Below, one piece after another: positions 1 through 19,823 of a DNA stretch of 27,204 bases. Location of the stretch: positions 1 to 27,204 of IMG/VR virus record IMGVR_UViG_3300010297_000067; one strand, written 5' to 3'. Numbering within the stretch: the first letter of the stretch is position 1; each line of letters begins with the position of its first letter. Under the pieces are notes generated by a model. That model saw nothing but the letters and a program-made list of their open reading frames with translations, was not told where the DNA came from and made no database searches. The translations under genes and the position numbers were made by a program. This DNA comes from a virus.

Positions 1-190
1 CCGTATGTAAAATCAATGGGTCCCCATAAGCTATAAACGACCCAGATCGACCTGTTTATATAAGGATCAAAAGATTTACAAAAACCCCAAAGACTTATAA
101 AACCTCTACGCACATAAAAACCAAAATCAAAATAAAAAATACCATCAAAATAAAAAAATTCCGCGAAAATTTTTTATCATATAGGGTTTT
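1..190. other. AT-rich non-coding leader
   Basis: No forward frame stays open: the frame entering the window stops at 34-36 (PYVKSMGPHKL*), which could be the tail of an upstream gene but is too short to support. The stretch holds A-rich direct repeats of ATCAAAATAAAAAA at 126-139 and 144-157, spaced 18 nt apart. The complementary strand is open from about 170 down to 1 but has no ATG. No terminator hairpin was found. Confidence 0.5.
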
Positions 191-198
191 AATAAATA
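191..198 (+). promoter_or_regulatory. T4-type late promoter (AATAAATA)
   Basis: The octamer AATAAATA differs in one base from the T4 late consensus TATAAATA, which is recognised by the gp55 sigma factor. It ends 16 nt before the ATG at 215. By T4 geometry transcription would start near 204, leaving a leader of about 11 nt with no Shine-Dalgarno sequence. A late promoter fits a virion-associated product. Confidence 0.55.
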
Positions 199-214
199 TC
201 TAAAAATTGCTGAT

Positions 215-598
215 ATGAAAACCTTCTCTCAGTTTATAGAAGAAGCAAAAAAAGCAAAACCCCCAGAAGAAGTTCTTAATAAAATCTCCCGTGCCTATGG
301 TAAAAAGCACAGAGGAGTTAATCTTGATACAACACATTCATCCTCTGGTGATATTCGCCTTAATAATATTTGGTTGCCCCCAGAAAAAAGAAATCAAGGA
401 ATTGGATCTCGTATAATGAAAGGATTATCATCTTATGCAGATCGTCAAGGAAAAAGAATTACATTATCACAAGCACCAGAAAAAGGGAAAAAACAAAAAT
501 TAGCAAACTTCTATAAGTCTCATGGATTTGTTCCTAATAAAGGAAGAAATAAGGATTTCACAACTAGGGATACTCATATAAGAAATCCAAAAACATAA
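215..598 (+). CDS. Short GNAT acetyltransferase with capsid-targeting-like N-terminus
   Basis: A 127-aa protein. The core looks like a GNAT (acetyl-CoA N-acetyltransferase) fold: a beta strand ending near 52-56, then the pyrophosphate-loop motif R59-N-Q-G62-I-G64 (consensus Q/R-x-x-G-x-G), a helix at 65-78, strand RITLS at 81-85, and a motif-B-like LANFYKSHGF at 96-105. The N-terminal GNAT region is short, so the substrate pocket may be reduced. The first residues, MKTFSQFIEEA, match the pattern of the T4 IPIII capsid-targeting peptide (MKTYQEFIAEA), including an I-x-E site at 8-10 suited to the gp21 prohead protease. Inference: the protein is packed in the prohead, trimmed after E10, and possibly injected with the DNA. 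The start is the only ATG downstream of the late promoter at 191-198. The target of acetylation is unknown. The GNAT call is fairly secure; packaging is a prediction. Confidence 0.8.
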   Translation: MKTFSQFIEEAKKAKPPEEVLNKISRAYGKKHRGVNLDTTHSSSGDIRLNNIWLPPEKRNQGIGSRIMKGLSSYADRQGKRITLSQAPEKGKKQKLANFYKSHGFVPNKGRNKDFTTRDTHIRNPKT

Positions 599-3481: not shown

Positions 3482-3889
3482 ATGCCAATGGCAATTCAAA
3501 GGATATCAAGATCATTTAAAGATATTAGTTTATCATTTGAACCACATCCAATTACAAAAGATCTTCCTATATTAAAAAATGAGTCTGCGATTCGTAGATC
3601 TGTAAGAAATATTGTCCAAACAATACCAACCGAAAGATTTTTCAATTCTCTCTTTGGTTCTGATGTTAGATCAAGTTTATTTGAATTTGTCGATTTTGGT
3701 ACAGCACTAATTATTAAAAATCAAATTGAAACATCAATTAATAATTTTGAAGAAAGAATTAATAATTTAATTGTTGAAGTTAATCCAAATCCAGATCAAA
3801 ATTCTTTCGAAGTAAATATAATTTTTGATATAATTGGTGAAGAGTTTCCAAGACAAGAGTATTCATTTATCTTAGAGGCAACAAGATAA
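3482..3889 (+). CDS. gp25: Baseplate wedge subunit gp25
   Basis: A 135-aa homologue of T4 gp25 (132 aa), the small baseplate wedge protein that joins the gp6/gp7/gp53 core bundle and is related to type VI secretion TssE. Seen in the sequence: N-terminal SRSFKDISLSFEPHPITKDL (9-28), the A-I-R-R-S-V-R-N-I-V helix near 36-45, an LFGSDVRSSL block (57-66), and NNFEERINNL (87-96) where gp25/TssE have the EPR region. It ends with strands (VNIIFDII, YSFILEA). A second in-frame ATG lies 6 nt downstream (3488), so the start may be either. It is the first gene of the late operon and gp6 follows after one base. Confidence 0.95.
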   Translation: MPMAIQRISRSFKDISLSFEPHPITKDLPILKNESAIRRSVRNIVQTIPTERFFNSLFGSDVRSSLFEFVDFGTALIIKNQIETSINNFEERINNLIVEVNPNPDQNSFEVNIIFDIIGEEFPRQEYSFILEATR

Positions 3890-3890
3890 A

Positions 3891-5861
3891 ATGCCTTTTA
3901 CAAAGTATACAAATCTAGATTTTGATCAAATAAAAACATCCATTAAGGATTATCTACGTGCCAATAGTGATTTTAAAGATTTTGATTATGAAGGATCTAA
4001 TATGTCAGTTCTTATTGACATATTAGCATATAATACTTATATTACATCATTTAACTCTAATATGATTGTTAATGAATCCTTTTTGGATTCTGCAACATTA
4101 AGAGAAAATGTTGTTTCTCTTGCGGGAAATATTGGATATGTTCCAAAATCTAGAAAAGCATCTTCTGCACAAATATCCTTTAATGTAACAACAAACATAG
4201 ACACCCCAACACTTATATTAAAGGCAGGGATAGTATGTGTAGGTAGCGTTGATAATACATCATATACATTTGCCATACCAGAAGATATTGTATCAAATGT
4301 GAATAATGGTCAAGCATCATTTAATAATATTAATATCTATCAGGGAATATTTTTAACTAAACAGTTTGTATACGATGGATCATTAGATCAAAGATTTATA
4401 TTAGATAATTCTTTCATTGATACATCGACATTAAAAGTTTATGTTAAAAAAACAAATGATGTTAATCTTGGGAATGAATATTTTGTTTCTGAAAATATTT
4501 TTAATGTTAATAAAAATTCTAGAGTGTATTTCCTGAGCGAAATACAAGATGAAAAATATGAATTAAAATTTGGTGATGGATTAATTGGAAAAAAATTAGG
4601 CGATAATCAAGATGGAACTATAATAACTGCGAATTATATAATCACAGATGGAAAAGATGGTAATGGTGCTAGTTCATTTTCCTTTTCTGGGACATTAGAA
4701 ACTTCATCAGGAACTATAATAGATCCTGGAACAGTTGTTATAACAACAAATCAATCATCAATAAATGGTGATGAAATAGAAACTGTAGATTCTATTAAAT
4801 ATTATGCGCCAAAATTATATTCTTCACAGTATAGGGCAGTTACATCCAGAGATTATGAATCAATAATTAAAAAAATATATCCAAATGCAGAATCTATCTC
4901 TGTTGTTGGTGGGGAAGAGTTAGATCCTCCAGAATTTGGAACAGTTCAAATTAGTATTAAACCAAACAATGGATCTTTTGTATCAGATTTTGATAAACAG
5001 CAAATTTTATCAAAAATAAAACAATATTCAATTTCTGGAATAAATCAAAAAATAGTAGATTTAAAAATTCTTTATGTTGAACTTAATAGTTCCGTCTATT
5101 ATAATTATTCACAAATATCGAGTGAAGATTCAATAAAAACATCAGTTATTAATTCTCTTGAAAAATATTCAAAGTCTTCAGACTTAAACAGATTTGGGGG
5201 AAGATTTAAATATAGCAAAGTTCAGCAAGTTATTGATAATACAGATAATGCGATTACATCAAATATTACAAAAATTACTATCCGTAGGGACTTACAACCA
5301 ATTTTCAATACATTTGCTCAATATGAATTGTGTTACGGAAATAGATTTCATATAAATCCTCAGGGGTATAATATTAAGTCTACAGGATTCAATATTTCTG
5401 GAGAACTGTCACCAGTTTATATAACAGATACTCCAACAATTATAACATCTGAAGACGAAATATCCGACTCTACAGATTCTGGAAATATTTTTCTTAATAG
5501 ACCACAATCTATTAATGCAAAAACTGGAATTCTATCTTTGTTTAAACTTGATAGCAATGGAATCCCAACCACTGTAGTTAAAGAAGCAGGAGTAGTTGAT
5601 TATGAAAAGGGAGAAATAGTTCTTGGGACCATAAACATTACAGGAACATCTACTATTAATAATACTATAGAAATACAGGCTTTTCCGGAGTCAAATGATA
5701 TTGTTGGACTTAGGGATTTATATATTTCATTAAGCATTCCCAAAAGTAAGATAAATATGGTAAGAGATGTAATTGCATCTGGCGATGAAATATCCGGAAC
5801 CAGATTTATTAACGATTTTTATACTTCAAGTTACTCAAACGGAAATTTAATAAGAGAGTGA
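3891..5861 (+). CDS. gp6: Baseplate wedge subunit gp6
   Basis: A 656-aa homologue of T4 gp6 (660 aa), which forms the dimeric ring linking the wedges of the baseplate and belongs to the wider gpJ/T6SS TssF-like family. The N-terminus MPFTKYTNLDFDQIKTSIKD and the following block NMSVLIDILAYNTYITSFNS are the hallmark helical region. Further on, SQYRAVTSRDYESIIKKIYP (about residues 311-330) is the conserved middle block of baseplate J-type proteins. Length is standard and no break is seen. It lies one base after gp25 and one base before the giant gene; AAGAGAG before the next start may serve as that gene's ribosome site. Confidence 0.95.
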   Translation: MPFTKYTNLDFDQIKTSIKDYLRANSDFKDFDYEGSNMSVLIDILAYNTYITSFNSNMIVNESFLDSATLRENVVSLAGNIGYVPKSRKASSAQISFNVTTNIDTPTLILKAGIVCVGSVDNTSYTFAIPEDIVSNVNNGQASFNNINIYQGIFLTKQFVYDGSLDQRFILDNSFIDTSTLKVYVKKTNDVNLGNEYFVSENIFNVNKNSRVYFLSEIQDEKYELKFGDGLIGKKLGDNQDGTIITANYIITDGKDGNGASSFSFSGTLETSSGTIIDPGTVVITTNQSSINGDEIETVDSIKYYAPKLYSSQYRAVTSRDYESIIKKIYPNAESISVVGGEELDPPEFGTVQISIKPNNGSFVSDFDKQQILSKIKQYSISGINQKIVDLKILYVELNSSVYYNYSQISSEDSIKTSVINSLEKYSKSSDLNRFGGRFKYSKVQQVIDNTDNAITSNITKITIRRDLQPIFNTFAQYELCYGNRFHINPQGYNIKSTGFNISGELSPVYITDTPTIITSEDEISDSTDSGNIFLNRPQSINAKTGILSLFKLDSNGIPTTVVKEAGVVDYEKGEIVLGTINITGTSTINNTIEIQAFPESNDIVGLRDLYISLSIPKSKINMVRDVIASGDEISGTRFINDFYTSSYSNGNLIRE

Positions 5862-5862
5862 T

Positions 5863-8800
5863 ATGATACAGACTGGATTTGAATCAAAAATAAAAGTACA
5901 AGATATTATTGAAAATCAGATTCCAAGTTTTATTTTGGATGAAAGTCCAAAAACATCCGAATTTCTAAAACAATATTATATTTCCCAAGAATATCCTGGT
6001 GGTCCAATTGATATTGCTGATAATCTTGATCGATATTTAAATATTGATAATTTAAAACCAGAAGTTATTGTTGATAATACCACTTTAACATATGATATAA
6101 CTAAAAATTCATCAAGCATTAATGTATCTAGCACAAAAGGATTTCCAAATCAATATGGAATAATAAAGATTGATGATGAAATAATTACATATAGTGGACC
6201 AATAAAACAAAATTATATTGAAAAAACTTGTAGAATTCCTGATGGATCTAATATTGTTTATGTATCTGATATTGACAGTTCTTTGTACATTGGTAGACCA
6301 TTTAATATAAAATCTTTAAATAAAGAATTAAGTATAGTTTCAGTATCATCAACATTTATAACAGTATCTGACACTGTTATTGATACTCAAAGTATTTTCT
6401 TTTCAGAAAATATCGTAAAACCTAATATATCAATTTCAACTGAAACAAATATTATAACAGGAATATCTACAGAAAATCTTCTTGTTGGAAATTATATTGA
6501 TGAAATTGAAAACATTATTAAACCAAGAACAAGAATTATCGGAATAGGAGAAAATTCTTTAACAATATCTCCCGCCACTATCAATGCAGGAATAACTACA
6601 GCAAATTTAAGTTTTGGAACTTATAAATCATCTCAAATTGATTATGATCAGGATGGAAATTACATTTTTAATACAAATAGTCCACAATTTAATGGTTGTA
6701 TTCGTGGATTTAGTGGTATTACTCAATATGAAGAAGATTTAAATAGGGAAGAACTTATATTCTCAACTTCAACTGCAGAAGAACATTCAAATGGTTCTAT
6801 AGTTGAAAATTTAAGTTCTTTATTTTTAAAAGAGTTTTATAAAAAATTAAAGTATACTTTCGCTCCTGGATTGGAAGATATTACTTTAGCGGAAAATATA
6901 GATGTTGGAAATTTTATAAAAAAAGCAAAAAACTTTTATCAATCGAAGGGGACTGATGAGTCTATAAAAATTCTTTTTAAAGTTATTTTTGGAGAAACTT
7001 CATCAATTATAAATTTGGAAGATTATTTAATAAAACCATCTTCTGCAAATTACATTAGAAGAGAAGTTATTATTGCAAAAGTTTTATCTGGAGATGCATC
7101 AAAAATATCTGGTCAAACATTAGTGAGAAGTAATGATGAAAATACTAATGCCTCAATATCAACTGTAGAATCTTTTATTCGCAAGGGAAAAACATTTCAT
7201 AAAATAGATCTTTATATTGGTAATACTAGCGATTCTTCGGCAATAAAAGGAACTTTTATAATTACTCCAAATACAAAATTAGTAGAATCTGCATCTCCAG
7301 GAGATTCTATTTTAACAGTAGATTCTACAATTGGATTTCCAGAATCTGGAACTTTAATAATAGGAAATAATAGAATTACATATACTGGAAAAACAATTAA
7401 TCAATTTATTGGTTGTTCTAATGTTAATTCTATAAATGCTACTTCCGATATTATATCCGAAGATACTTATTTTGCTTATGAAGATGGAGACTCTTCTAAA
7501 AAAGTAGAATTAATTATTCTTGGAGTAATACAAGATTTAATTGAAGAAAATTCTGACTTTGAAGTTGAAGAAGGTGATACATTGTCAGTTAAAAGTATTG
7601 GTGATAAGATTAATAATGAAAGTAAAGATAAAACATATAAAGAAATATTTGCAAATTCTTGGATATACAATACTAGTGCAAGATATCAAATTGAAAATAA
7701 TGATAACTTAAAATTATATTCTACCATTGATAGATCAAGTTTGAAAGTAGGTGATGAAGTTGAAATATTGGGAAGAGATAGTGAAGTTGTATTAGAATCT
7801 AATAATGGTATCACTTACATTAAAAGCATTGATTTTGGTAATAATACAGTGGAGGTTGAAAATAAACCAATTCTATTGCCTGGTGAAAAGTATGATTTGA
7901 GAAGAAAATTAAATAAATCTAATCAATCGGGATCAAGTTTTCCATCTAAATCTCTTTTATCTGATGTATTAAATTTATATGTTGATAATGAAGAATATGC
8001 ATTTGTTGCATCAAATTCTTTACCTTCCGAAGAAAAATTTAATATAAAAAATTATAGACATAATATTGGATTTCCAATTAAATCAGTAACTATTGATACT
8101 TTAAATTACTTAACTGATAAAGATTTTAATAATGAATACAATTCATTTACTCTTTTATCCTCTGATCCAGATCTTCCCTTCATAAATGGAGACAAAGTTT
8201 ATTATTCATCAGAAGGTCCAACTTTAGTTGGATTGGATACTGGATTTTACTATATAGAAAAATTGAATGATAAAAAATTTAAATTATATTCTTCAAATTA
8301 TACTATAGAATCTGGAAATAATTTAACATTTACAGTACCACAATCTGGTATAGGTACTCATAACTTTATTTTATCATCTCAAAAAGATAATGAACTTGGA
8401 ATACAAGCAATTTTGAGAAAGTTTCCATTAGAAAAAAATATTGAGGATGGATCTGGAGTTGATACTCCACCAGAAAGCACAGGGATGTTGATAAATGGGG
8501 TAGAAATATACAATTATAAATCTAAAGATTTTATTCACTATGGACCAATTGAAAAAGTTAATGTTCTTTCTAGTGGAGAAAATTTTGATGTAATAAATCC
8601 ACCTTTACTTGAAATTTCTCCTGGTATAGGAAATACTGCAAAAGTTCAACCCATTATTTCTGGAAGTTTTAAAAAAGTTTATGTAGATTCTCAAGATTAT
8701 GATATTGACAATATAATTTCAATCAATATCAGTGGCGGAAATGGTAGTGGTGCTGTAATTGAACCAATATTAATTAAAAAATCTAGAGATGTTATATTTG

Positions 8801-11800
8801 ATGGTAGATTAATTTCTAATGGTGGTGGTGTTAGCAATACAACTAATCAAATTTTATTTTTAGAAAATCATAATTTTAGTGATGGAGAAAGAATTGTATA
8901 CAATTCTCAGGGAAATGATTCGATAATTTTGGGAGATGTGCTTGATAATTATAATCTACCAAATAATTCAATATACTATGCTAAAATAGATAGTGCTCGG
9001 GCAATAAGATTATTTAATAATCGTTATGATTATGAATCAGAATCTAATGTTGTTGGAATATATACTGGAACTTCTGGTTTTCATAGATTTTCAACACTTT
9101 CAACAAAAAATCAAATTTCATATCTAAAACTTCTTGAAGAGGGAGAAGGATATACAAATAGAAAACTAATTGTTAATCCTGCAGGAATATCTACTACACA
9201 AAATACAATTTATTTCAAAGATCATGGATTTAATGATGGAGAAATTGTGGAATATGATTATGAAATATCTCCAATAAGTGGAATTTCAACAATTAACAAG
9301 TATAGAATATTAAAAATAGATAATGATTATTTTAGAATATGTGATTCCGGTATTGATGGTACAATAACTTCAAATTATGATAGATCCAATTATGAATATT
9401 TAAATAGTGCAGGAAGTGGATATCAATATTTCAAATATCCAGATATTTCAGTATCAATTAAATATAATCCTGTTGGTTTTGGCACTACATCGCAAGAATA
9501 TCTAGAATTAATTGCAACTCCAGTTGTTAAAGGAAGTATTTCTGGCATTTATGTCTATGAATCTGGAACTGGGTATGGGTCAACAGTTTTAAATTATAAG
9601 AAAAATCCAAATATTGCTGTAAAGAATGGAAAATTTGCAGAATTATCTCCAGTTATAATAAATGGTTCTATTCAAAGTGTTATTGTAAGTTATACTGGAA
9701 TTGAATATTACTCAGTTCCCGATTTAATTGTTTTAGGGTCTGGAACTGGAGCAGAACTTAGATCCGTAATACAAGATGGAAAAATAATAGAAGTAAAAGT
9801 AATTAATCCTGGCATTGGGTATTCTCAAGATACCACAATACAAGTTATTCCATCGGGTAGAAATTTAGTTACTGATTTTGAAATTAGAAAATTAAGAGTT
9901 AATAATAATATTAGATTTTCTTCAGGTGAAGTTTTATTAGAAGGAAGAGATAAACTTCAGTATTCTATTCTAAAATATTTTGATGAATTGTCAGATTCAT
10001 TTTTAGAAGAAGAAAAAAAGGGATCTGAAATTATAGGATGGTGTTATGATGGAAATCCAATTTATGGTCCATATGGACATTCAGATCCCAATGATAGAAA
10101 TTCTGAGATAAAACAGTTAAAATCTAGCTATACTTTAGATATATCTAATGTTTTTGATAGACCAAATGGATTTTCTGAAGGATTTTTTGTGGAGGATTAT
10201 AAATTTAATTCTGGCAATGATTTAGATGAATATAATGGAAGATATGAAAAGAATAATGATTTTCCAAATGGAGTTTATGCATACCATGCCACAATTGATG
10301 AATTCCCATACTTTATTGGTAATAAGTATAAATCTAAATTAATTTTAGATTATAAATTAGATCAATCTTTAGAACTCAATAATTTAAATTTATTAAGAAA
10401 TACTCTACCATATAAAATATCTGAAAAAAATGCTAGTTATGATTTTATAGATGAAATAACTGAAACTTTTGAGCAAAAAGTAGAAGTAGTATCTGTCACT
10501 GATGGTGGAATAGAATCTTTAAGTATAGAAAATAGTGGAGATGGATATAAAATAGGAGATAAATTAATATTTGATAATACCAACACATCTGGAAACGGTT
10601 TAGATGTTGAAGTTTCATCAATTAAGGGAAAAGATATTATTAGTTTAGAAACTTCTTCAAGTTTAAATAATAATTCTATATTTGTATGGGAATCTTCGGA
10701 TAAGATAAAGGTATCAATTTTACCATATCACAATTTTAAAGATTTAGATTATGTAAATATTTCTGGATTTGGAAGTAGTCCCTTTCTAAATGGAACTTAT
10801 AGGATTTCTGTTCCAAAATATGAAAATGGTAGATGTTTATCTACAATAACATCTGCATCATTAGGATTTACAACTGAGATATATGTTTCGCCAATTCCAA
10901 ATCAAATATCAGTTGGAAGTAGTATTATAATCGGAACAGAAACTTTAAGTATTCTTGGTGTATATAGAGAACAAAATATTCTTAGGGTTGAGAGGGGATC
11001 TACAGGAGTATCACATACAGTTGGAACTGCAGTGACATATTTGTCAAATTATTTTACTTTTTCTAAGTCTTTAGATCAATTCAGTTCGAAATTAAATGAT
11101 ATAGTATTCTTTAATCCGAAAGAATCTATTGGCGTTTCAACTTTAAACGGAGTAGGATATAATACTTCCTTTACCTTTGGAAATAATTCAATAACTAGAA
11201 GTATTCCATCTAAAGGAATTTATATTGATAATCACCCATTTTTAACAAATCAATCAGTTATTTTTACCACTAATGGATCTCCTATAGGATATTCTACCGA
11301 TGGATTAATACCATTTTTGCCTCTTCCACAAAATCTCTTTGTTGTTAATAAAAATAAAAACTTAATTGGATTGAAAACTTCTTTAAATGGTGAAGAGGTA
11401 TTTTTTCACACTAATGGAATTGATAATGATAAATACTCAATTCAATCTAATTACCCTCAAGTACTGGGTAATGTTGAAAAAAATGAAGTTATAGTTTCAG
11501 TTTCCACTTCACATGAACTTACAACTGGCGATTTAATCTCATTAAATGTTAAACCAAATCTTAATGTAGGTATAGGGACTTTTACTTCGGTAAAGATTCT
11601 TTATAATTCCAAAATAAAAAGTATTGTAGTTAATCCAATTGAATTTACTTCTTTGGGTATTAATACTATTACAAATCAAATTACTATTCCAAATCACAGA
11701 TTGGAAACTGGAGATAAAATTCTATATGAAAATTATGAATTTGGCGAATATTTTGTATATAAAGTAAATAAAGATAAGATAAGTTTATGTGAAACTTATT

Positions 11801-14800
11801 ATGATACTCAAAAAAATCTCCCAATAATTGTAGGATTTGCATCTACTGGAGCATCTTCTCAATCAATAACATTAATTAATCCACCCATTAAAGTAATTAA
11901 AAATAATAATCTTGTTTTTGATTTATCAGATTCTTCTTTATCTGGATATGAGTTTAAAATTTTTACTGATCTTAATTTTAATCATGAATTTGAAACTACA
12001 AAAAAACCATCAACATTTAATGTTTCTAATGTAGGTATTGTTGGAATTTCTACTAATGCATCACTAACTATTCAGTATGATTCATCTATTCCAGAAAATC
12101 TTTACTACAATTTAGAAAAATCTGGTAATATTGCAAACTCTGATAAAGATGTTATTAATTATAATAAAATATCATATATTAACAGCATTTATAATGGATC
12201 TTATAATGTAATTGGAATAGGTACAACAACTTTTAGTATAAATTTAGAAAAACTTCCAGAAAAACTTTCTTATGCTTCTACAGAATGTAGTGTATTAGAA
12301 TATTCAACGAAATCAAGTTTAGCAACAGGTCCAGTCAATTCTTTAAATATTTTATCTTCAGGATCTGGATATAAAAAATTACCATTTTTTAAGTCTACAA
12401 ATTCAATTTCTGGAAAAGATTTACTGGTAATTCCAAAATCAAATACAATAGGATCAATTAAAGAATTGAGAACTATTAATAGTAGATTTGCATATCCATC
12501 AGATAAAACACTAAGACCAAAAGTTTTTGCATCTCCCATCATTAAAGTCAAAGATTCCAATACGATAGATCAAATATCAATTATTAGTGGAGGGTCTGGA
12601 TATGTTTCACCACCAAACTTTGTTTTAGTAAATTCAGAAAATAGAGATATTGTAACTTCTGGGTTAATCGAATTTAATATTACAGGATCATCTATAACTT
12701 CAACTGAAATTATCGCAGAACCAAAAGGTCTTCCGGATGAAAAAGTAGAATTGTATACGATCAATAATAATAATGGAGTTTCTATTGAAAAAGTTGAGTC
12801 TGTAAATGCCACAACATTTGATTGTTATATATCTACACCCAATGTTTTTGGAATATCTGAATTTAGAGATGCACCATTTAGTGATGGTGATGAAGTTTTT
12901 GTAGAAGGGATACAAAAATTTGGTTCTTCTGGTGATGGATTTAATTCTTCAGATTATGGATATAAATTTTTTAAAGTTATCGATTATGATAATACTTCTA
13001 TTAATGATAGAGTGAGAATTAGTGTTTCTGGATTAACAACAAACACTGGCATTCCAAAAACAATTCAAGATTACATTGGGGTTTTAATTAATAAAAATGA
13101 TTATCCAGTTTTTGAGGTAACTAAAAAAATATCTAATTTTGTAGTTGGAGAAAAATTATCATCCAATGGTATATCAAGAGATTTAGAAGTCGTTGAGAGT
13201 GTTAGTAATTATTTAAAAATTATTGGAACTTACAATTTATCAGTAGGTGAAACTATTATAGGAAATGAATCTGGAAATAAAGCAACAATTGTTTCATTAA
13301 AAGAAAATAATGGAGTATTTAATATTGGATATTCTAATTTAAAAAATATTGGTTGGGAAAATGAAATAGGAAAGTTAAGTGAAGATTATCAAGTTATTGC
13401 TAATAATGATTATTACCAAAATTTATCATATTCAATAAAAAGTTCAGTATCTTATAAAGACCAGCAATCTCCTATTGAAAGTTTAGTGCATATAAGTGGA
13501 ATGAAAAATTTTGCAGATACGCAAGTATTGCAAAATGCAAATGGTGGGGTTGTAAATAATGATGAATTTTCTTCTTTCATTTATGATATAATTGATGAAA
13601 AACGTGTAGATACTATTAATAATTTTGATAGAGTTATAGATCAAGATGTTATTCAAGGAAAATCTAAATTTTTAAAATTGCAGAGTGAAAAACTGACAAA
13701 CTATACAGAATTGAAAAGTTTAGATGTATTAAGTATTGATGATATTAGTAATCAGTTTTCAAGTATAGAATCTGAAGTTACTGAATTTTTATCTATAGAA
13801 GAAGTTGATGATCAATCATATTACAACTTTTTAATAAGAATAGTTAACCCAGAAAAAAATGAAGAAATTCAATTAACAGATATCACTATTTTAAGTAATG
13901 GATCGGAAACTTTTATTGTCGAAAATGAATCTTTAACTGGAATAGGATCTACATCATATCATTTAAATAATGATACATTTGGAACATTTGATTTATATAC
14001 AAATGAATATGAAGAAACTTTTTTAAGATTTTATCCAAATGATCCTTTCGATAGTGATTATGATTTAAAAATAATTAGACAAGTATTTGATTCTTCATCT
14101 TCTGGTCTTGGAGCAGAATCTATAGGTTTTGTAAAATTAACTGGATCTACTGCATTTGATAATGCAGATGTAGGAATTGGAACAACTACTATTATTTCTG
14201 TAGACTCTAATAATTTTGATGCATTATATATAAATTCACACGCAATTAATTTATCTACTTTAGAGTCGGATTATGTGAGATTATACGTTGTTGGTATTGG
14301 TACTAGTACATATACTTCAGAATATTATATTGATGGTTATAATCAAAGATCATTTACTGGAAATCAAATAGGTACTTTTTATGCCAATATAGATGATAGT
14401 GGCATTTTACATGTATTCCATGAAAATAATACTCCAAATCAAATTAGAATAAAAAGTAATATAGTTGGATTTGGCAATACATTATCTGGAATAGGAACAT
14501 ATCGATATAGTGTATTTGGGCAAGATGATGGGCAAGAAAGAAGTGCAATTTATGAATCTGGATTTACTGATACTTCATCGGGATTATCCACATCCATTTT
14601 AACTTTTAATAAAAATCTTTTTAATGCATCTAAATCAGTTATTCAAATTAGTGAGGGATATAAAAAAGCACTTCATCAAGTTATGATAATTTATAATGAA
14701 AATGATGTTTATATTCAACAATTGCCATTTTTAACTGTTTCGGGTGAAAATGAGTACATTTCAGAATTTGATGGATCTTCCGGATTGGGGACTTTTGGTG

Positions 14801-17800
14801 GTAGTATCTCCGGAAATGATGTTATATTATCATTTTATCCAGATTCTAGTGAATCTGTTGATATTAAAATTTTTAGTAAAATTTTATATAAAGATTTAGA
14901 TATTATCAATGAACCACCAGATTTATCTTATGGAACAGTTATAGAAAGAATTGATGAAAAATTTTATAATGGTATTAATCTTGATAGAATTAATAAAACC
15001 AATTTTGTTCTTAGAAGTAACAAAATTCCAATTTTTTCAAAAACTTTTAACCCAAATAGAACATCAGAGTTAAATCCAAGTACAGGAGTATTTACTATTC
15101 CAAATCACTTTTTTGTAACCGGAGAAGAATTAATTTACACCCCAAACTCAACAATTGAAGAGGTTGGAATATCTTCAATAGAAACGGGAAGTGGTCCATT
15201 ACCATCTAGGGTATATGCATATAAAGTATCCGACGATAAATTTAAAATTGCACTGACAAAAGAAAGTGCTGATGCTGGAATTGGGACAACTTTCACTTCT
15301 CTTGGAGAGGGAAATTCTCATAGATTTACTATGGCAAAAAGAAATAGTAAATGTATTATAACTATCGACGATTTAATACAATATCCATTAACATATACAA
15401 AAATAACACATCAATTGAATGGAAATGTAAATGGTGAAGTTGGTATTAATACTGATATAATTTCTTTAAGTGGAATATCTTCTATAAATCCAAAAGATAC
15501 ATTATTAGTTGATGATGAGTATATGGGAGTTATAAATGTTGGATTGGGAACAACAAATTTGGGACCCATTACAAATAGTGGAAATTTAAATTTGGTAAAG
15601 GTTGATAGAGGTTTTGTTGGATCTTATATATCTACCCATACAGATTCTTCTTTAGTGAGATTATATAAAGGTGCATTTAATATTGTAGATGATGAAATTC
15701 ACTTTGCAGAACCCCCAAGAGGTAATCCTCAGATTAACAAAACAAAATATAATTTAGATTTTGAAACATCATCATTTACTGGTAGGGCATTTTTAAAATC
15801 TGGATATGAAAATAACAAAATTTATGATGATATATCTGATGAATTTAGTGGAATTAATAGTTCATTTACTTTAAAGGTGGGTGGTGCAAATACTACAGGA
15901 ATTGGAACCGAAGGATCTAACGGACTTATTTTTATCAATGGTGTTTATCAATCCCCCAAAACAGACAATAATCCGAATATTTTTAATTATGAAATTTTAG
16001 AAGATGTTGATTTGGGATTATCTACAGTAAGATTTTCTGGAATTACAAGACCAGATGATCCTCTAGAATATGTAATTTCAGAATATGATGTTAATGCAAA
16101 TGCACTTCCTAGAGGGGGAATTATAGTTTCCTATGGTTCCACTACAGGACTTGGTTTTGCACCTCTCGTAGGCGCTTCCGTAACAGCTGTCGTTGGTGCT
16201 GGAGGTTCTATTGTATCTGTAGGATTGGGAACAACTGATAATCTTGGATCTGGATATAATGGACTTACTCCAATTGGCGTTTTTGTTTATGAGGAGAATC
16301 ACGTCGGCACAGCGGCAACTATTGAAGTTTCTAATATTGGGGTTGGAGGTACATTGTCATTTAGTGTTGTTGGACCTGGAACTGGATATAACAATCCAAA
16401 AATATTTGTATCAGATCCTTCTTATGAAAATTTACCAATTATTGGTGTTTCTAGATTGGGGATTGGGAATACGACTGAGACTGGAGTTGGATTGTTAATG
16501 GATGTTAAAGTTGGAGGATCTACAGGAATAGGCTCTACATATTTTGAAGTGACTGATTTTAAATTCTCTAGGACTGGATATGGTTTTAGAAGAGGTGATG
16601 TATTTAAACCTGTTGGATTGGTTACTGACGCCTCACTATTATCTCCATTGTCAGATTTTACGATTACTGTAGTTGATACTTATACTGATTCATTTGCAGC
16701 ATGGGATTTTGGAGAGATTGATTACATAGATTCAATAAAACAATTTCAAGATGGTATAAGAGTTAGATTTCCACTTATATACAATGGAGAACTTCTTAGT
16801 TTTGAACCTGAAAATAATTCTTCCATCCAAAGAAATATCAATAATGTTTTAGTAATTTTTATAAATGGAATTATTCAAGAACCAAAAATTAACTATATTT
16901 TTGAAGGTGGAACATCTTTCGTCTTTACAACACCACCATTACCAGAAGATAATATTGATATTTATTTTTATAAGGGTGTTGATGGTGTTGACTCTGTTAC
17001 AGTTGATGATATATTTCCAACTATAAAATATGGAGATGATGTTCAAGTATTGAGTATTAATTCAAATCAAAATACAATATCACAGGAAGAAAGAACTGTT
17101 TATAATTTAGCATTTTCAGATAAATTTGAAACTAATTTATATTTTGGTCAAGGAATAGATGAAACTGTTTATAAACCACTTTCTTGGACTAAACAAAAAG
17201 TTGACAAAAAAATTAATGGAGAATTTATATCAAAATCCAGAGATACCTTAGAACCACTGATTTTCCCAACGGCAAAAATTATTAAAAATATTTCCACAAC
17301 AGATAATGAAATATTCTTGGATAGTATTGAATTATTTGAGTATGAAGATGGTGTATTTGGAGAAGATAATAATGAGTTTACTGATAAAACTAATGCAGGA
17401 TTTGATGCATTAATTATTGATAATACAAATCCAGTTTCTGCAGCATTTACATGCTCCATTGGGTTTGGTGGAACTGTTATTGGAATAACAACACTTAATG
17501 TTGGATCTGGATATGCTGCAGATCAATCAACAATATCCTTAAAATTTACAAATCCACCTGAACTAGGAATAGGAATAGGAACAACTGCATCTGCAGAGGC
17601 AACTATAATAAATGGTTCTGTTTCTTCAGTTTCTATCACAAATCCTGGATTTGGATATGCGGTAGAACCAAAAATATTTGCAGAAACTCCAAATTATAAT
17701 ATTGAAAAAATTACAGGGTTTAGTGTGATTAACGGATTTTCTGGAATTGTAACCGGAATTACAACATCTAATGGAATAGGTACTGCATTGGCATTAGTTT

Positions 17801-18237
17801 TTAATATTTATCATGATGTGAATGATAATTATTTCTCAGGAATAAGTACTGGATATCCGATTTACATTTATGATACTCAAATTGGTAATGGTGTTGTGTC
17901 AATTGATGAATCAGATTCTGAATCCGTTGGAATTGGGACTACTTTCTTAGATAATGTTTATTATGTATCAGATTGGTCTAATAATGCCGAAATTGCAATT
18001 ATTACTTGCAATGTTAAGTCAGATTCTAATATTATTGGAATTGAAACCACTGGAAGTATTGAAAATCCAGTAGGAAAATATTCTTGGGGAAGATTGTATG
18101 TAGGAACAAGATCTGAAAATCCAATTTCAATTAATGTTTCCGGAAATATTGTTAGTGGATTATCTACTTATCCAACAATTCAAAGAAGAAATTTTGGAAT
18201 TAGAAAAACTGGAGCACTTCCCAAAATTGTTTTATAA
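5863..18237 (+). CDS. 4124-aa giant baseplate/tail structural protein with YHYH domain
   Basis: One uninterrupted 4124-codon frame in the place of T4 gene 7, between gp6 and gp8. T4 gp7 is about 1030 aa and shares no obvious sequence, so this is a positional analogue at most. Layout: residues 34-63 hold FLKQYYISQEYPGGPIDIAD and following; 318-455 a conserved helical region (FYKKLKYTFAPGLEDI, then AKNFYQSKGTDESIKILFKV); about 1390-1485 a YHYH-type domain (D1396-GNPIYGPYG, then YAYH at 1472-1475). The rest is beta-rich repeat: E1_FCCH-like H-x-F-x-x-G units, GxGY units, 'gF..G.i.I..E.I.Y' units and many VGIGTT turns. The C-terminus FGIRKTGALPKIVL resembles the ends of other marine phage structural proteins. 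There is no signal peptide or membrane segment. Likely a peripheral wedge or fibre component that may bind host surface glycans (inference). Start ATG is one base after the gp6 stop. Confidence 0.88.
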   Translation: MIQTGFESKIKVQDIIENQIPSFILDESPKTSEFLKQYYISQEYPGGPIDIADNLDRYLNIDNLKPEVIVDNTTLTYDITKNSSSINVSSTKGFPNQYGIIKIDDEIITYSGPIKQNYIEKTCRIPDGSNIVYVSDIDSSLYIGRPFNIKSLNKELSIVSVSSTFITVSDTVIDTQSIFFSENIVKPNISISTETNIITGISTENLLVGNYIDEIENIIKPRTRIIGIGENSLTISPATINAGITTANLSFGTYKSSQIDYDQDGNYIFNTNSPQFNGCIRGFSGITQYEEDLNREELIFSTSTAEEHSNGSIVENLSSLFLKEFYKKLKYTFAPGLEDITLAENIDVGNFIKKAKNFYQSKGTDESIKILFKVIFGETSSIINLEDYLIKPSSANYIRREVIIAKVLSGDASKISGQTLVRSNDENTNASISTVESFIRKGKTFHKIDLYIGNTSDSSAIKGTFIITPNTKLVESASPGDSILTVDSTIGFPESGTLIIGNNRITYTGKTINQFIGCSNVNSINATSDIISEDTYFAYEDGDSSKKVELIILGVIQDLIEENSDFEVEEGDTLSVKSIGDKINNESKDKTYKEIFANSWIYNTSARYQIENNDNLKLYSTIDRSSLKVGDEVEILGRDSEVVLESNNGITYIKSIDFGNNTVEVENKPILLPGEKYDLRRKLNKSNQSGSSFPSKSLLSDVLNLYVDNEEYAFVASNSLPSEEKFNIKNYRHNIGFPIKSVTIDTLNYLTDKDFNNEYNSFTLLSSDPDLPFINGDKVYYSSEGPTLVGLDTGFYYIEKLNDKKFKLYSSNYTIESGNNLTFTVPQSGIGTHNFILSSQKDNELGIQAILRKFPLEKNIEDGSGVDTPPESTGMLINGVEIYNYKSKDFIHYGPIEKVNVLSSGENFDVINPPLLEISPGIGNTAKVQPIISGSFKKVYVDSQDYDIDNIISINISGGNGSGAVIEPILIKKSRDVIFDGRLISNGGGVSNTTNQILFLENHNFSDGERIVYNSQGNDSIILGDVLDNYNLPNNSIYYAKIDSARAIRLFNNRYDYESESNVVGIYTGTSGFHRFSTLSTKNQISYLKLLEEGEGYTNRKLIVNPAGISTTQNTIYFKDHGFNDGEIVEYDYEISPISGISTINKYRILKIDNDYFRICDSGIDGTITSNYDRSNYEYLNSAGSGYQYFKYPDISVSIKYNPVGFGTTSQEYLELIATPVVKGSISGIYVYESGTGYGSTVLNYKKNPNIAVKNGKFAELSPVIINGSIQSVIVSYTGIEYYSVPDLIVLGSGTGAELRSVIQDGKIIEVKVINPGIGYSQDTTIQVIPSGRNLVTDFEIRKLRVNNNIRFSSGEVLLEGRDKLQYSILKYFDELSDSFLEEEKKGSEIIGWCYDGNPIYGPYGHSDPNDRNSEIKQLKSSYTLDISNVFDRPNGFSEGFFVEDYKFNSGNDLDEYNGRYEKNNDFPNGVYAYHATIDEFPYFIGNKYKSKLILDYKLDQSLELNNLNLLRNTLPYKISEKNASYDFIDEITETFEQKVEVVSVTDGGIESLSIENSGDGYKIGDKLIFDNTNTSGNGLDVEVSSIKGKDIISLETSSSLNNNSIFVWESSDKIKVSILPYHNFKDLDYVNISGFGSSPFLNGTYRISVPKYENGRCLSTITSASLGFTTEIYVSPIPNQISVGSSIIIGTETLSILGVYREQNILRVERGSTGVSHTVGTAVTYLSNYFTFSKSLDQFSSKLNDIVFFNPKESIGVSTLNGVGYNTSFTFGNNSITRSIPSKGIYIDNHPFLTNQSVIFTTNGSPIGYSTDGLIPFLPLPQNLFVVNKNKNLIGLKTSLNGEEVFFHTNGIDNDKYSIQSNYPQVLGNVEKNEVIVSVSTSHELTTGDLISLNVKPNLNVGIGTFTSVKILYNSKIKSIVVNPIEFTSLGINTITNQITIPNHRLETGDKILYENYEFGEYFVYKVNKDKISLCETYYDTQKNLPIIVGFASTGASSQSITLINPPIKVIKNNNLVFDLSDSSLSGYEFKIFTDLNFNHEFETTKKPSTFNVSNVGIVGISTNASLTIQYDSSIPENLYYNLEKSGNIANSDKDVINYNKISYINSIYNGSYNVIGIGTTTFSINLEKLPEKLSYASTECSVLEYSTKSSLATGPVNSLNILSSGSGYKKLPFFKSTNSISGKDLLVIPKSNTIGSIKELRTINSRFAYPSDKTLRPKVFASPIIKVKDSNTIDQISIISGGSGYVSPPNFVLVNSENRDIVTSGLIEFNITGSSITSTEIIAEPKGLPDEKVELYTINNNNGVSIEKVESVNATTFDCYISTPNVFGISEFRDAPFSDGDEVFVEGIQKFGSSGDGFNSSDYGYKFFKVIDYDNTSINDRVRISVSGLTTNTGIPKTIQDYIGVLINKNDYPVFEVTKKISNFVVGEKLSSNGISRDLEVVESVSNYLKIIGTYNLSVGETIIGNESGNKATIVSLKENNGVFNIGYSNLKNIGWENEIGKLSEDYQVIANNDYYQNLSYSIKSSVSYKDQQSPIESLVHISGMKNFADTQVLQNANGGVVNNDEFSSFIYDIIDEKRVDTINNFDRVIDQDVIQGKSKFLKLQSEKLTNYTELKSLDVLSIDDISNQFSSIESEVTEFLSIEEVDDQSYYNFLIRIVNPEKNEEIQLTDITILSNGSETFIVENESLTGIGSTSYHLNNDTFGTFDLYTNEYEETFLRFYPNDPFDSDYDLKIIRQVFDSSSSGLGAESIGFVKLTGSTAFDNADVGIGTTTIISVDSNNFDALYINSHAINLSTLESDYVRLYVVGIGTSTYTSEYYIDGYNQRSFTGNQIGTFYANIDDSGILHVFHENNTPNQIRIKSNIVGFGNTLSGIGTYRYSVFGQDDGQERSAIYESGFTDTSSGLSTSILTFNKNLFNASKSVIQISEGYKKALHQVMIIYNENDVYIQQLPFLTVSGENEYISEFDGSSGLGTFGGSISGNDVILSFYPDSSESVDIKIFSKILYKDLDIINEPPDLSYGTVIERIDEKFYNGINLDRINKTNFVLRSNKIPIFSKTFNPNRTSELNPSTGVFTIPNHFFVTGEELIYTPNSTIEEVGISSIETGSGPLPSRVYAYKVSDDKFKIALTKESADAGIGTTFTSLGEGNSHRFTMAKRNSKCIITIDDLIQYPLTYTKITHQLNGNVNGEVGINTDIISLSGISSINPKDTLLVDDEYMGVINVGLGTTNLGPITNSGNLNLVKVDRGFVGSYISTHTDSSLVRLYKGAFNIVDDEIHFAEPPRGNPQINKTKYNLDFETSSFTGRAFLKSGYENNKIYDDISDEFSGINSSFTLKVGGANTTGIGTEGSNGLIFINGVYQSPKTDNNPNIFNYEILEDVDLGLSTVRFSGITRPDDPLEYVISEYDVNANALPRGGIIVSYGSTTGLGFAPLVGASVTAVVGAGGSIVSVGLGTTDNLGSGYNGLTPIGVFVYEENHVGTAATIEVSNIGVGGTLSFSVVGPGTGYNNPKIFVSDPSYENLPIIGVSRLGIGNTTETGVGLLMDVKVGGSTGIGSTYFEVTDFKFSRTGYGFRRGDVFKPVGLVTDASLLSPLSDFTITVVDTYTDSFAAWDFGEIDYIDSIKQFQDGIRVRFPLIYNGELLSFEPENNSSIQRNINNVLVIFINGIIQEPKINYIFEGGTSFVFTTPPLPEDNIDIYFYKGVDGVDSVTVDDIFPTIKYGDDVQVLSINSNQNTISQEERTVYNLAFSDKFETNLYFGQGIDETVYKPLSWTKQKVDKKINGEFISKSRDTLEPLIFPTAKIIKNISTTDNEIFLDSIELFEYEDGVFGEDNNEFTDKTNAGFDALIIDNTNPVSAAFTCSIGFGGTVIGITTLNVGSGYAADQSTISLKFTNPPELGIGIGTTASAEATIINGSVSSVSITNPGFGYAVEPKIFAETPNYNIEKITGFSVINGFSGIVTGITTSNGIGTALALVFNIYHDVNDNYFSGISTGYPIYIYDTQIGNGVVSIDESDSESVGIGTTFLDNVYYVSDWSNNAEIAIITCNVKSDSNIIGIETTGSIENPVGKYSWGRLYVGTRSENPISINVSGNIVSGLSTYPTIQRRNFGIRKTGALPKIVL
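9130..9830 (+). repeat. GxGY beta-repeat cluster in the giant protein (first group)
   Basis: Five copies of a roughly 40-60-residue unit with the pattern V.....G.GY.......I.V: EEGEGYTNRKLIV, SAGSGYQYFKYPDISV, YESGTGYGSTVL, SYTGIEYYSVPDLIVLGSG and INPGIGYSQDTTIQV. Isolated copies follow near 10525, 12349 and 12580. Such units are common in tail proteins of marine myoviruses and probably fold as beta hairpins. Confidence 0.65.
10036..10330 (+). other. YHYH-type domain within the giant protein
   Basis: The pair of motifs GWCYDGNPIYGPYG (about residues 1392-1405) and GVYAYHATIDEFPYFIG (1470-1486) fits the YHYH family order (DGfPIyGp, then GxYHYH.....Y..ig). The signature itself reads YAYH at 1472-1475, so the first histidine of the YHYH tetrad is replaced by alanine. 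Biochemical role of the family is not established. Confidence 0.75.
16219..17700 (+). repeat. GxGY and GIGTT repeat cluster near the C-terminus of the giant protein
   Basis: Second group of GxGY units: DNLGSGYNGLTPIGV, VGPGTGYNNPKIFV, SRTGYGFRRGDVF, LNVGSGYAADQSTISL and ITNPGFGYAVEPKIFA. They are interleaved with G-I/L-G-T-T turns (SVGLGTTDN, TGIGSTYFE, GIGIGTTASA), which also occur near 12217, 14170, 14293, 15280, 15539 and 17935. Confidence 0.65.
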
Positions 18238-18257: not shown

Positions 18258-19823
18258 ATGTCTGCATTTGTAACAGATAAATTTAGAATATTGAATGCTG
18301 ATTCTTTTGTAGAGTCAATCAGTAATAATTCTTATTATATTTTTCTGGGATTAACAAATCCAGATAATACTACAGTTATTTCTGGAGAAGGTCCAACAGA
18401 AAATGATGGTTTTGGTAGATTGATAAACTGGGATACTAGTACAGCAAATAATCCCGTAGATAATTTACAATATCTTTCACATTATAGAGATACTTGTTTA
18501 TTCGGAAAAAAAATAATCTCAGAAAATGCTAGAAGAGTTGTAAAAAAATATGAATGGGTTCAAAATTCTCCATATGATGTTTATAGGCATGATTATGGTC
18601 CAAGCAATGTATCTTTAGTATCTCAATCGGAAAGATTATATAGTTCAAATTACTATGTAGTCACAAGTGAATATAAAGTTTATATTTGTATAGAAAATGG
18701 TTCTTCTGGAACTGGAACTGTTTCAAGATCTCAAACAGAACCTAATCATACTGATATTGAACCAGTATCATATAATGATGGATATAAATGGAAATATCTT
18801 TTTAGAGTTTCACCTGCTGATGTAATAAAATTTGATTCGACTGAATATATTATTCTCCCAAATGATTGGATGACTACAACTGACAGTGAAATTCAATCTA
18901 TTAGAGAGGGTGGAGATTCTTTCAATAATAACAATCAAATAAAAACAGTTTATATTGAAAATGGTGGTTCTGGTTATGGTGATAGCTTTACTGCAAATAT
19001 TTTAGGTGATGGTGTTGGTGGAACAGTATTTGTTTCCACAAGTTCTGGTGTCATTGATAATGTAATTGTTACAAATGGTGGATATGGATATACATATGGA
19101 ACAATAGAACTTTCTGGAGGATCTGGTGCAAAATTAGTTCCAATCATTCCACCATCAAAAGGACATGGATATGATATTTATGATGAATTAGGTGCCGATA
19201 AAGTTTTATTATATGCTAGATTTGATGATTCTACTAAGAATTTCCCAGTGGATACAAAATTTTCACAAGTTGGAATATTGAAAAATCCAGAAACTTTTTC
19301 AAGTTTAAGTAGAACTAATCAAAATTTCACAGAAAATACATTTTCAGCACTTTATTCAATTGCACTACAAGATTCTGTTTCAGTGGAAATAGGAAATTTA
19401 GTAACTCAGGATCAGGGAAACGGAATAGTTGCAGAAGGATATATTGCATCTTTTGATAAAGAAACTAAAATTTTAAAATATTATCAAGATAGATCTTTAT
19501 CTTTTGCAAATAAAAATGACCAAACTGATTCTACATATGTCAATAAAAATATAATTCCATTTGTTTCTACAGAAAGTGTTTTAGTTAATGCAAATAATAT
19601 AGGAAATTCTGTAAATGTAGAAATTGACACAAGTATTAATAATACAAATCAACTAACAACTGATAGTGGAAAAGTTGTAGATTTGGGCGTCACTTTTACA
19701 AATGGTCTTTCTAATCCACAGATAAATAAAAAGACGGGAGATATAATTTATATTGATAATCGACCAATTGTTGAGAGAAACTCTAGACAAAAAGAAGACA
19801 TTAAAATTATTCTGGAATTTTAA
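18258..19823 (+). CDS. gp8: Baseplate wedge subunit gp8, enlarged
   Basis: A 521-aa homologue of T4 gp8 (334 aa), a dimeric beta-rich protein of the baseplate wedge. Support: N-terminal VTDKFRILNADSFVESI, the YYIFLGLTNPD block (26-36), YRHDYGPSNV (108-117), NYYVVTSEYKVYICIENG (130-147) and the DGYKWKYLFRVSPADVIKFD block (about 174-193), in the same order as in gp8 proteins, and its place after the gp7 position. The extra length includes an inserted pair of GxGY units at about 233-290 (ENGGSGYGDSF, TNGGYGYTYGTIELSGG), followed by PPSKGHGYDIYDELGA. The next gene starts 5 nt after the stop with only an A-rich gap. Confidence 0.88.
   Translation: MSAFVTDKFRILNADSFVESISNNSYYIFLGLTNPDNTTVISGEGPTENDGFGRLINWDTSTANNPVDNLQYLSHYRDTCLFGKKIISENARRVVKKYEWVQNSPYDVYRHDYGPSNVSLVSQSERLYSSNYYVVTSEYKVYICIENGSSGTGTVSRSQTEPNHTDIEPVSYNDGYKWKYLFRVSPADVIKFDSTEYIILPNDWMTTTDSEIQSIREGGDSFNNNNQIKTVYIENGGSGYGDSFTANILGDGVGGTVFVSTSSGVIDNVIVTNGGYGYTYGTIELSGGSGAKLVPIIPPSKGHGYDIYDELGADKVLLYARFDDSTKNFPVDTKFSQVGILKNPETFSSLSRTNQNFTENTFSALYSIALQDSVSVEIGNLVTQDQGNGIVAEGYIASFDKETKILKYYQDRSLSFANKNDQTDSTYVNKNIIPFVSTESVLVNANNIGNSVNVEIDTSINNTNQLTTDSGKVVDLGVTFTNGLSNPQINKKTGDIIYIDNRPIVERNSRQKEDIKIILEF

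Follow-up and report, generated by a model that had tools for sequence, protein, structure and literature searches.

The ADP-ribosyltransferase Alt of bacteriophage T4 is carried in the phage head and is believed to act on proteins of the host, modifying them when infection begins. The small internal proteins of T4 reach the head by means of an N-terminal capsid-targeting sequence (CTS). The first 10 residues of IPIII are enough for packaging, mutagenesis has shown residues 4 and 7 to be important for targeting and residues 8 and 10 for processing by gp21, and gp21 cleaves by the rule L/I-x-E (PMC9026906). The ip genes of T-even coliphages have been found by this signal sequence, CTS-tagged internal proteins are described there, and T4 Ip1-3 are injected inhibitors of the GmrSD restriction enzymes (PMC12373910). 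GNAT acetyltransferases occur in another kind of injected cargo, the polyvalent proteins, where one family usually has an ART neighbour (Iyer et al. 2017, PMC5512222). The tag, gp21 and injected cargo are already known from T-even phages, and the GNAT family from polyvalent proteins. The literature that we searched does not describe cassettes of CTS-tagged enzymes for T4-like phages of the cyanophage-like or environmental kind, nor does it invoke the CTS to explain their virion-associated enzymes.

Here we describe a gene that very probably encodes a T4-type internal head protein with a GNAT body, which would be loaded, cut, injected and active on the host. It lies in the window, by which we mean the whole 27,204-nucleotide stretch of DNA analysed, and consists of the following parts:

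215..598, + strand: gene for a GNAT acetyltransferase of 127 aa, predicted to be cargo of the head (ORF, Pfam, IMG/VR relatives, AF2)
215..244, + strand: capsid-targeting-sequence-like peptide MKTFSQFIEE, residues 1-10 (T4 IPII/IPIII identity, conservation)
between bases 244 and 245, + strand: predicted gp21 cut after E10 (T4 rule)
245..283, + strand: variable linker from tag to enzyme, residues 11-23 (length and sequence differ among homologues)
284..595, + strand: GNAT core, about residues 24-127 (phrog_10691, alignment of 45 relatives, polyvalent-protein relatives)
389..406, + strand: acetyl-CoA binding loop R59-N-Q-G-I-G64 (conserved in alignments)
536..559, + strand: NKGRNKDF signature, residues 108-115, characteristic of GNATs of this family (almost unchanged across 45 relatives)

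By domain and predicted fold, the ORF at 215-598 is a solo GNAT acetyltransferase, with acetyl transfer as its predicted chemistry. It matches Pfam Acetyltransf_7 with an E-value of 1.2e-7, a hit that passes the family cut-off, and its residues 23-126 match phrog_10691 (E 3e-21). The acetyl-CoA loop proposed in the initial annotation, R59-x-x-G-x-G64, is present and agrees with GNAT motif A (R/Q-x-x-G-x-G/A), with R59, G62 and G64 conserved. An AF2 model made from 45 relatives has an overall pLDDT of 82 and a confident core, the tag-bearing helix at residues 4-13 being less confident (about 60-67). Its best solved fold match is AcrVA5 (6iuf; Z 11.7, rmsd 3.1, 94/96 residues, 19 % identity), and the second-best match reaches Z 9.9. 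The predicted pI is 10.5. Polyvalent proteins are defined by several unrelated effector domains in one polypeptide; the protein described here has a single domain, and it is only this domain that is homologous to theirs.

The first 11 residues, MKTFSQFIEEA, had been said to match the T4 peptide MKTYQEFIAEA at 7 of 11 positions, and this count holds against IPII and IPIII as the T4 record gives them. The identical residues are M, K, T, F7, I8, E10 and A11, and position 4 is F instead of Y. A literature search did not find the letters of the peptide in papers. All four residues important in T4 (4, 7, 8 and 10) are satisfied by the window peptide, MKTFSQFIEE/A, where the slash marks the predicted cut. 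An alignment of 18 tagged homologues comprised the window, loci, S-CRM01 and B23, with L040, L048 and L057 standing apart as more distant members. In it, residues 1, 2, 4, 7, 8 and 10 are kept, with F/Y at 4 and I/L at 8; residues 5 and 9 are free to vary, and the linker (11-22) differs in length by up to six residues. The tag is conserved across homologues of 45-94 % identity.

Whether a homologue carries the tag follows its genomic surroundings. Searching IMG/VR with the GNAT gave 183 relatives, the best 80 of which were kept, each locus being tested for T4-like genes. Among these best 80 of 183, 36 loci (L002-L034, L040, L048 and L057) lie in T4-like surroundings, and the GNAT begins with a tag of the expected form in 33 of the 36, a count that includes L048 as well as L020, which uses an alternative start codon, and L040, which has L as its fourth residue. 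The tag of L057 is degenerate (MIKFSVFLESED), that of L028 and L029 is out of frame with the GNAT core through a frameshift in the gene or in the assembly, and L037 (MKSHEFITE) and L079 (MKLYQLFEN), which have T4-like hits, begin with tag-like peptides that failed the strict pattern; we count these degenerate tags and the frameshifted gene against packaging. At the remaining loci of the best 80, nearly all of them without T4-like hits, the GNAT domain bears no tag and mostly lies within a longer ORF of up to 2,941 codons. The tag pattern is absent anywhere in 19 non-T4-like records. A Pfam scan of nine long GNAT ORFs identified GNAT with ART-PolyVal and LPD22 in L043 and GNAT with InPase in L063, and sub-threshold ART-PolyVal hits in L065 and L077. 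The homologue in S-CRM01 is SCRM01_185, which begins MKTFDEFLTEG; that in Synechococcus phage B23 is gp252, which begins MKTYSQFITEA and has a tagged neighbour, gp253. In some phages two divergent tagged GNATs stand in tandem (G004/L027 10374-10721; G009/L025 9615-10001). The initial annotation had set the N-terminal peptide apart from the GNAT core, and the homologues bear out this division: the tag is kept in T4-like loci, the linker varies, and homologues outside T4-like phages go without the tag.

Ten residues are few, and a single sequence is weak proof that the resemblance is more than a coincidence on an unrelated cytoplasmic acetyltransferase. However, the same tag stands on unrelated neighbours as well as on the divergent homologues. 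In eleven related T4-like records the pattern MK[TS][FY]xxF[ILM]xE begins 29 of 1,796 non-overlapping ORFs, against a shuffle expectation of 0.001-0.002, and has no internal match in their 257,183 residues; stripped of their first 13 residues, the tagged proteins fall into 13 BLAST groups. Given 29 tagged ORFs, none internal, on 13 unrelated bodies, we rejected coincidence and give it next to no weight.

Features outside the search pattern point the same way. The tagged proteins of the eleven records have a median pI of 10.2, compared to 5.9 for the other proteins. Two columns that took no part in the selection are strongly biased, residue 6 being Q or E in 42 of 44 distinct tags (background 11 %) and residue 11, the first after the predicted cut, A, S or G in 37 of 44 (background 16 %). 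Counted once per body family, which is safer because the records are related to each other, the excess remains at 1.7e-9 for residue 6 and 7e-8 for residue 11. Independently of the tag pattern, cassette neighbours give weak matches to two profiles, phrog_2667 'internal head protein' (E 0.0075-0.08) and phrog_7857 'internal virion protein' (E 0.028), and these matches cover the N-terminal 24-75 residues. The expectation that other proteins would share the tag was borne out, since it was found on mutually unrelated, strongly basic proteins that cluster by the GNAT, and some tagged proteins are documented in virions of other T4-like phages.

A tag scan of IMG/VR returned at least 86 in-frame matches, at least 83 of them starting ORFs of 60 aa or more, in at least 43 body groups, with a T4 IPIII orthologue among the matches listed. 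When 20 further tagged bodies were run through Pfam, five were confidently named. Among the matches listed (L229-L308), the tagged protein of L304 is a glucosaminidase, that of L251 a DPBB lytic transglycosylase and that of L263 a CTP_transf_like enzyme; there are also tagged DUF6267/DUF5661 proteins and many bodies without a Pfam hit. In T4 itself, a protein not encoded by an ip gene matches the CTS in full: gp61.1 (AF158101, complement 18966-19130; L167) starts MKTFKEFIKED and, from its sequence, may be an unrecognised T4 internal protein. Under the patterns used, the tag is absent from S-PM2, Sinorhizobium phage phiM12, Pelagibacter phage HTVC008M and S-SSM7, and therefore it is not universal in the T4 superfamily.

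As an independent check, the tag is associated with proteins reported from the virion of a related phage. For S-CREM2, a member of the Kyanoviridae, a virion proteome of 52 proteins determined by mass spectrometry has been published (PMC10665884). Scanning its genome placed the tag on 4 of the 52 detected proteins and on none of the 158 other ORFs (Fisher p 0.003, a somewhat optimistic value because the looser pattern used, with any residue at 3, F/Y/L at 4 and an alternative start allowed, was set after several N-termini had been seen). The four are a SAM hydrolase (gp6), an APH-like kinase (gp14), a cytidylyltransferase (gp154) and gp13. The earlier pattern finds only two ORFs in this genome, gp6 and gp154, both of them virion-detected. 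The authors of that proteome point out that carry-over may explain some of the proteins detected in CsCl preparations (PMC10665884). The Cas9-like nuclease gp12 of S-CREM2 (OR473000; L225 4205-6814), also virion-detected, has the motif LRFASFMAEA at residues 17-26; either the annotation may place its start codon wrongly, or the tag may be internal.

Other cyanophages give single cases. The only tag match in S-SM1 is the T4-GC190 cytidyltransferase, which is named among newly detected virion proteins of that phage, and the P-SSM2 orthologue of T4-GC190 is tagged too. A virion-detected cytidylyltransferase of S-SZBM1 begins MRFRQFIIEA. S-SCSM1 has two matches, a detected virion NMNAT and ORF30; the latter lacks a virion-protein label and is counted against packaging.

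The window is a fragment of a T4-like phage in which profile search identified three baseplate-cluster genes, long ORFs occupying the gp7 and gp9/10 positions between and after them:

3482-3889: gp25 (profile match)
3891-5861: gp6 (profile match)
18258-19823: gp8 (profile match)

Two ORFs of this cluster are very large, 5863-18237 in the gp7 position (4,124 aa; the annotated gp7 of Synechococcus phage B23 has about 2,845 aa) and 19829-26923 after gp8 (2,364 aa). Directly 3' of the GNAT, at 634-807, lies a 57-aa protein with a phrog_661 match and weak SymE/antitoxin-like matches. Upstream of the GNAT are two further features:

1..214, + strand: leader joined to different tagged genes by near-identical phages (comparison with L002-L004)
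191-198, + strand: T4-type late-promoter-like AATAAATA (one mismatch from TATAAATA; conserved in the leader)

A late-type promoter had been proposed just upstream of the gene, and AATAAATA, one mismatch from the T4 TATAAATA, indeed ends 16 nt before the GNAT ATG. The window contains fewer exact copies of TATAAATA than chance predicts (3 versus 9.3 expected), and each of the three precedes an ATG, at distances of 16, 17 and 24 nt, gp25 and gp8 being two of the genes concerned; the 16-nt gap at the GNAT is the same as that of gp25.

The leader, the first 214 bases of the window, is common to L002-L004 at about 88-97 %. It runs directly into the GNAT in the window and L004, whereas the gene that it enters in L003 is ART-B, tagged and ART-like, which the GNAT follows. 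In L002 the leader match stops about 110 bases 5' of a tagged ART-A gene, with a short ORF-like stretch intervening, and the GNAT comes after it. Two of these arrangements have a clean junction at the ATG of the tag; the third (L002) does not. Tandem tagged genes are common, 2-4 in a row. ART-A (L002 6656-7216) and ART-B (L003 8953-9366) have a similar 3' end, with the C-terminus KRTKTQPKKK, which is possibly a second crossover handle for cargo exchange. Without the tag the two match each other only as a weak profile (52 %). The AF2 model of ART-A was poor (pLDDT 51), and a PDB sequence search with ART-A gave nothing usable. For ART-B there is a weak KptA-like PDB match (E 0.15), and one member matches phrog_5470 (E 7e-4); the label 'ART-like' therefore rests on motif pattern and weak hits.

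Junctions at the tag in the window, L004 and L003, together with the common ART 3' end, mean that the tag DNA may serve recombination, and the N-terminal peptide could then be an expression or recombination leader, a duplicated gene start or crossover site, on a GNAT that stays an unpackaged intracellular enzyme. We consider this quite improbable. At fixed tag residues the codons differ synonymously (ACA/ACC/ACT, TTT/TTC, GAA/GAG) and therefore selection acts on the peptide; residues 4, 7, 8 and 10 are fixed, which is conservation at the protein level. The motif also stands on T4 internal proteins and on virion enzymes detected by mass spectrometry, and a late-type promoter precedes the GNAT.

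The preferred reading, a tagged internal head protein, calls for a gp21-type protease. The window, itself a 27-kb fragment, lacks gp21; this prohead protease (Peptidase_S77, PF03420) was found in 6 of 6 relative records longer than 120 kb, as was the major capsid protein gp23, and the gp23 proteins that are readable in the relatives have L-x-E sites close to the N-terminus. The GNAT would be synthesised late, and its first 10 residues would bind it to the scaffold core at prohead assembly. Cleavage by gp21 after E10 (I-x-E/A) would release the basic enzyme inside the head, where it would stay with the DNA and be ejected with the genome into the next host cell. There it would acetylate a host protein, most likely one belonging to a first-response defence or to the machinery of transcription and translation. 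Related phages hold the GNAT in an exchangeable cassette of CTS-tagged cargo that includes ART-like proteins, a P-loop kinase and unknowns. We are confident, short of certainty, that this GNAT is packaged in the head; cleavage by gp21 is likely, injection a little less so, and acetylation of a host protein has about an even chance.

The tag could also be a real CTS on a GNAT that has a morphogenetic role in the core, or that stays in the head, instead of being injected to act on the host. T4 IPIII affects head morphology too (PMC9026906), and small tagged proteins of marine cyanophages adjoin terminase/neck genes. But the GNAT gene is accessory and sits within a variable cassette, the GNAT family and the ART-like proteins next to it are similar to domains found in polyvalent proteins that are injected, and T4 Ip1-3 act on host restriction enzymes post-injection (PMC12373910), so that we regard this alternative as improbable.

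Since T4 Ip1-3 are injected GmrSD inhibitors, defence suppression is a reasonable guess for the role of an injected GNAT. The anti-CRISPR acetyltransferase AcrVA5 acetylates Cas12a and blocks DNA recognition; the resemblance of the modelled GNAT to it, which is a fold match only, points toward defence suppression too. A bolder version, in which T4-superfamily heads carry exchangeable enzymes as individual proteins under one label, while homologous domains are fused into giant polyvalent proteins in other phages, and in which the GNAT is an AcrVA5-like, pre-loaded anti-defence acetyltransferase that inactivates an immune protein of the host before phage expression, is rather unlikely in our estimate.

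If the reading is correct, T4-like phages of both the cyanophage-like and the environmental kind use this one signal, and they use it on enzymes: GNAT, ART-like proteins, kinase, cytidylyltransferase and SAM hydrolase. That would account for the entry into the particle of cyanophage virion-associated enzymes that have been puzzling, and it would add acetylation to the chemistries delivered by T4-type heads. Proteins delivered together with DNA, a hidden class, could then be listed from sequence, in sets that are probably injected.

Compared to known systems, the locus is most like that of T4 IPI-III, with which it shares the N-terminal CTS (aromatic residue at 4, F7, I/L8 and E10, and A11 in IPII and IPIII), small basic accessory proteins, variable loci and, as we infer, late-type expression. 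It differs in that the GNAT body is an enzyme, whereas T4 Ip1-3 are GmrSD inhibitors (PMC12373910), and in that the GNAT loci belong to cyanophage-like and environmental T4-like phages. The initial annotation had drawn a parallel with Alt; the likeness to a head-carried enzyme stands, but Alt alone is a less near counterpart than the swappable T4 internal-protein locus, and acetyl transfer is predicted for the GNAT, the ART-like proteins being separate tagged neighbours in some phages. Cyanophage virion enzymes (cytidylyltransferase/NMNAT-like, SAM hydrolase, APH-like kinase) have similar CTS-like N-termini, and the accessible parts of their reports make no mention of a packaging signal. AcrVA5 shares the minimal GNAT fold of the model at 19 % identity and, to our knowledge, carries no such tag. 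With the GNATs of polyvalent proteins the protein shares a homologous domain, the NKGRNKDF motif and the GNAT-ART pairing seen in L043, but here it is a solo 127-aa protein with a CTS and no multidomain chain. The cargo of the swappable locus, a GNAT with ART-like proteins next to it, is delivered by other phages in fused form, within polyvalent proteins, and tagged solo proteins on one side and fused polyvalent proteins on the other suggest two packaging solutions for the same effectors.
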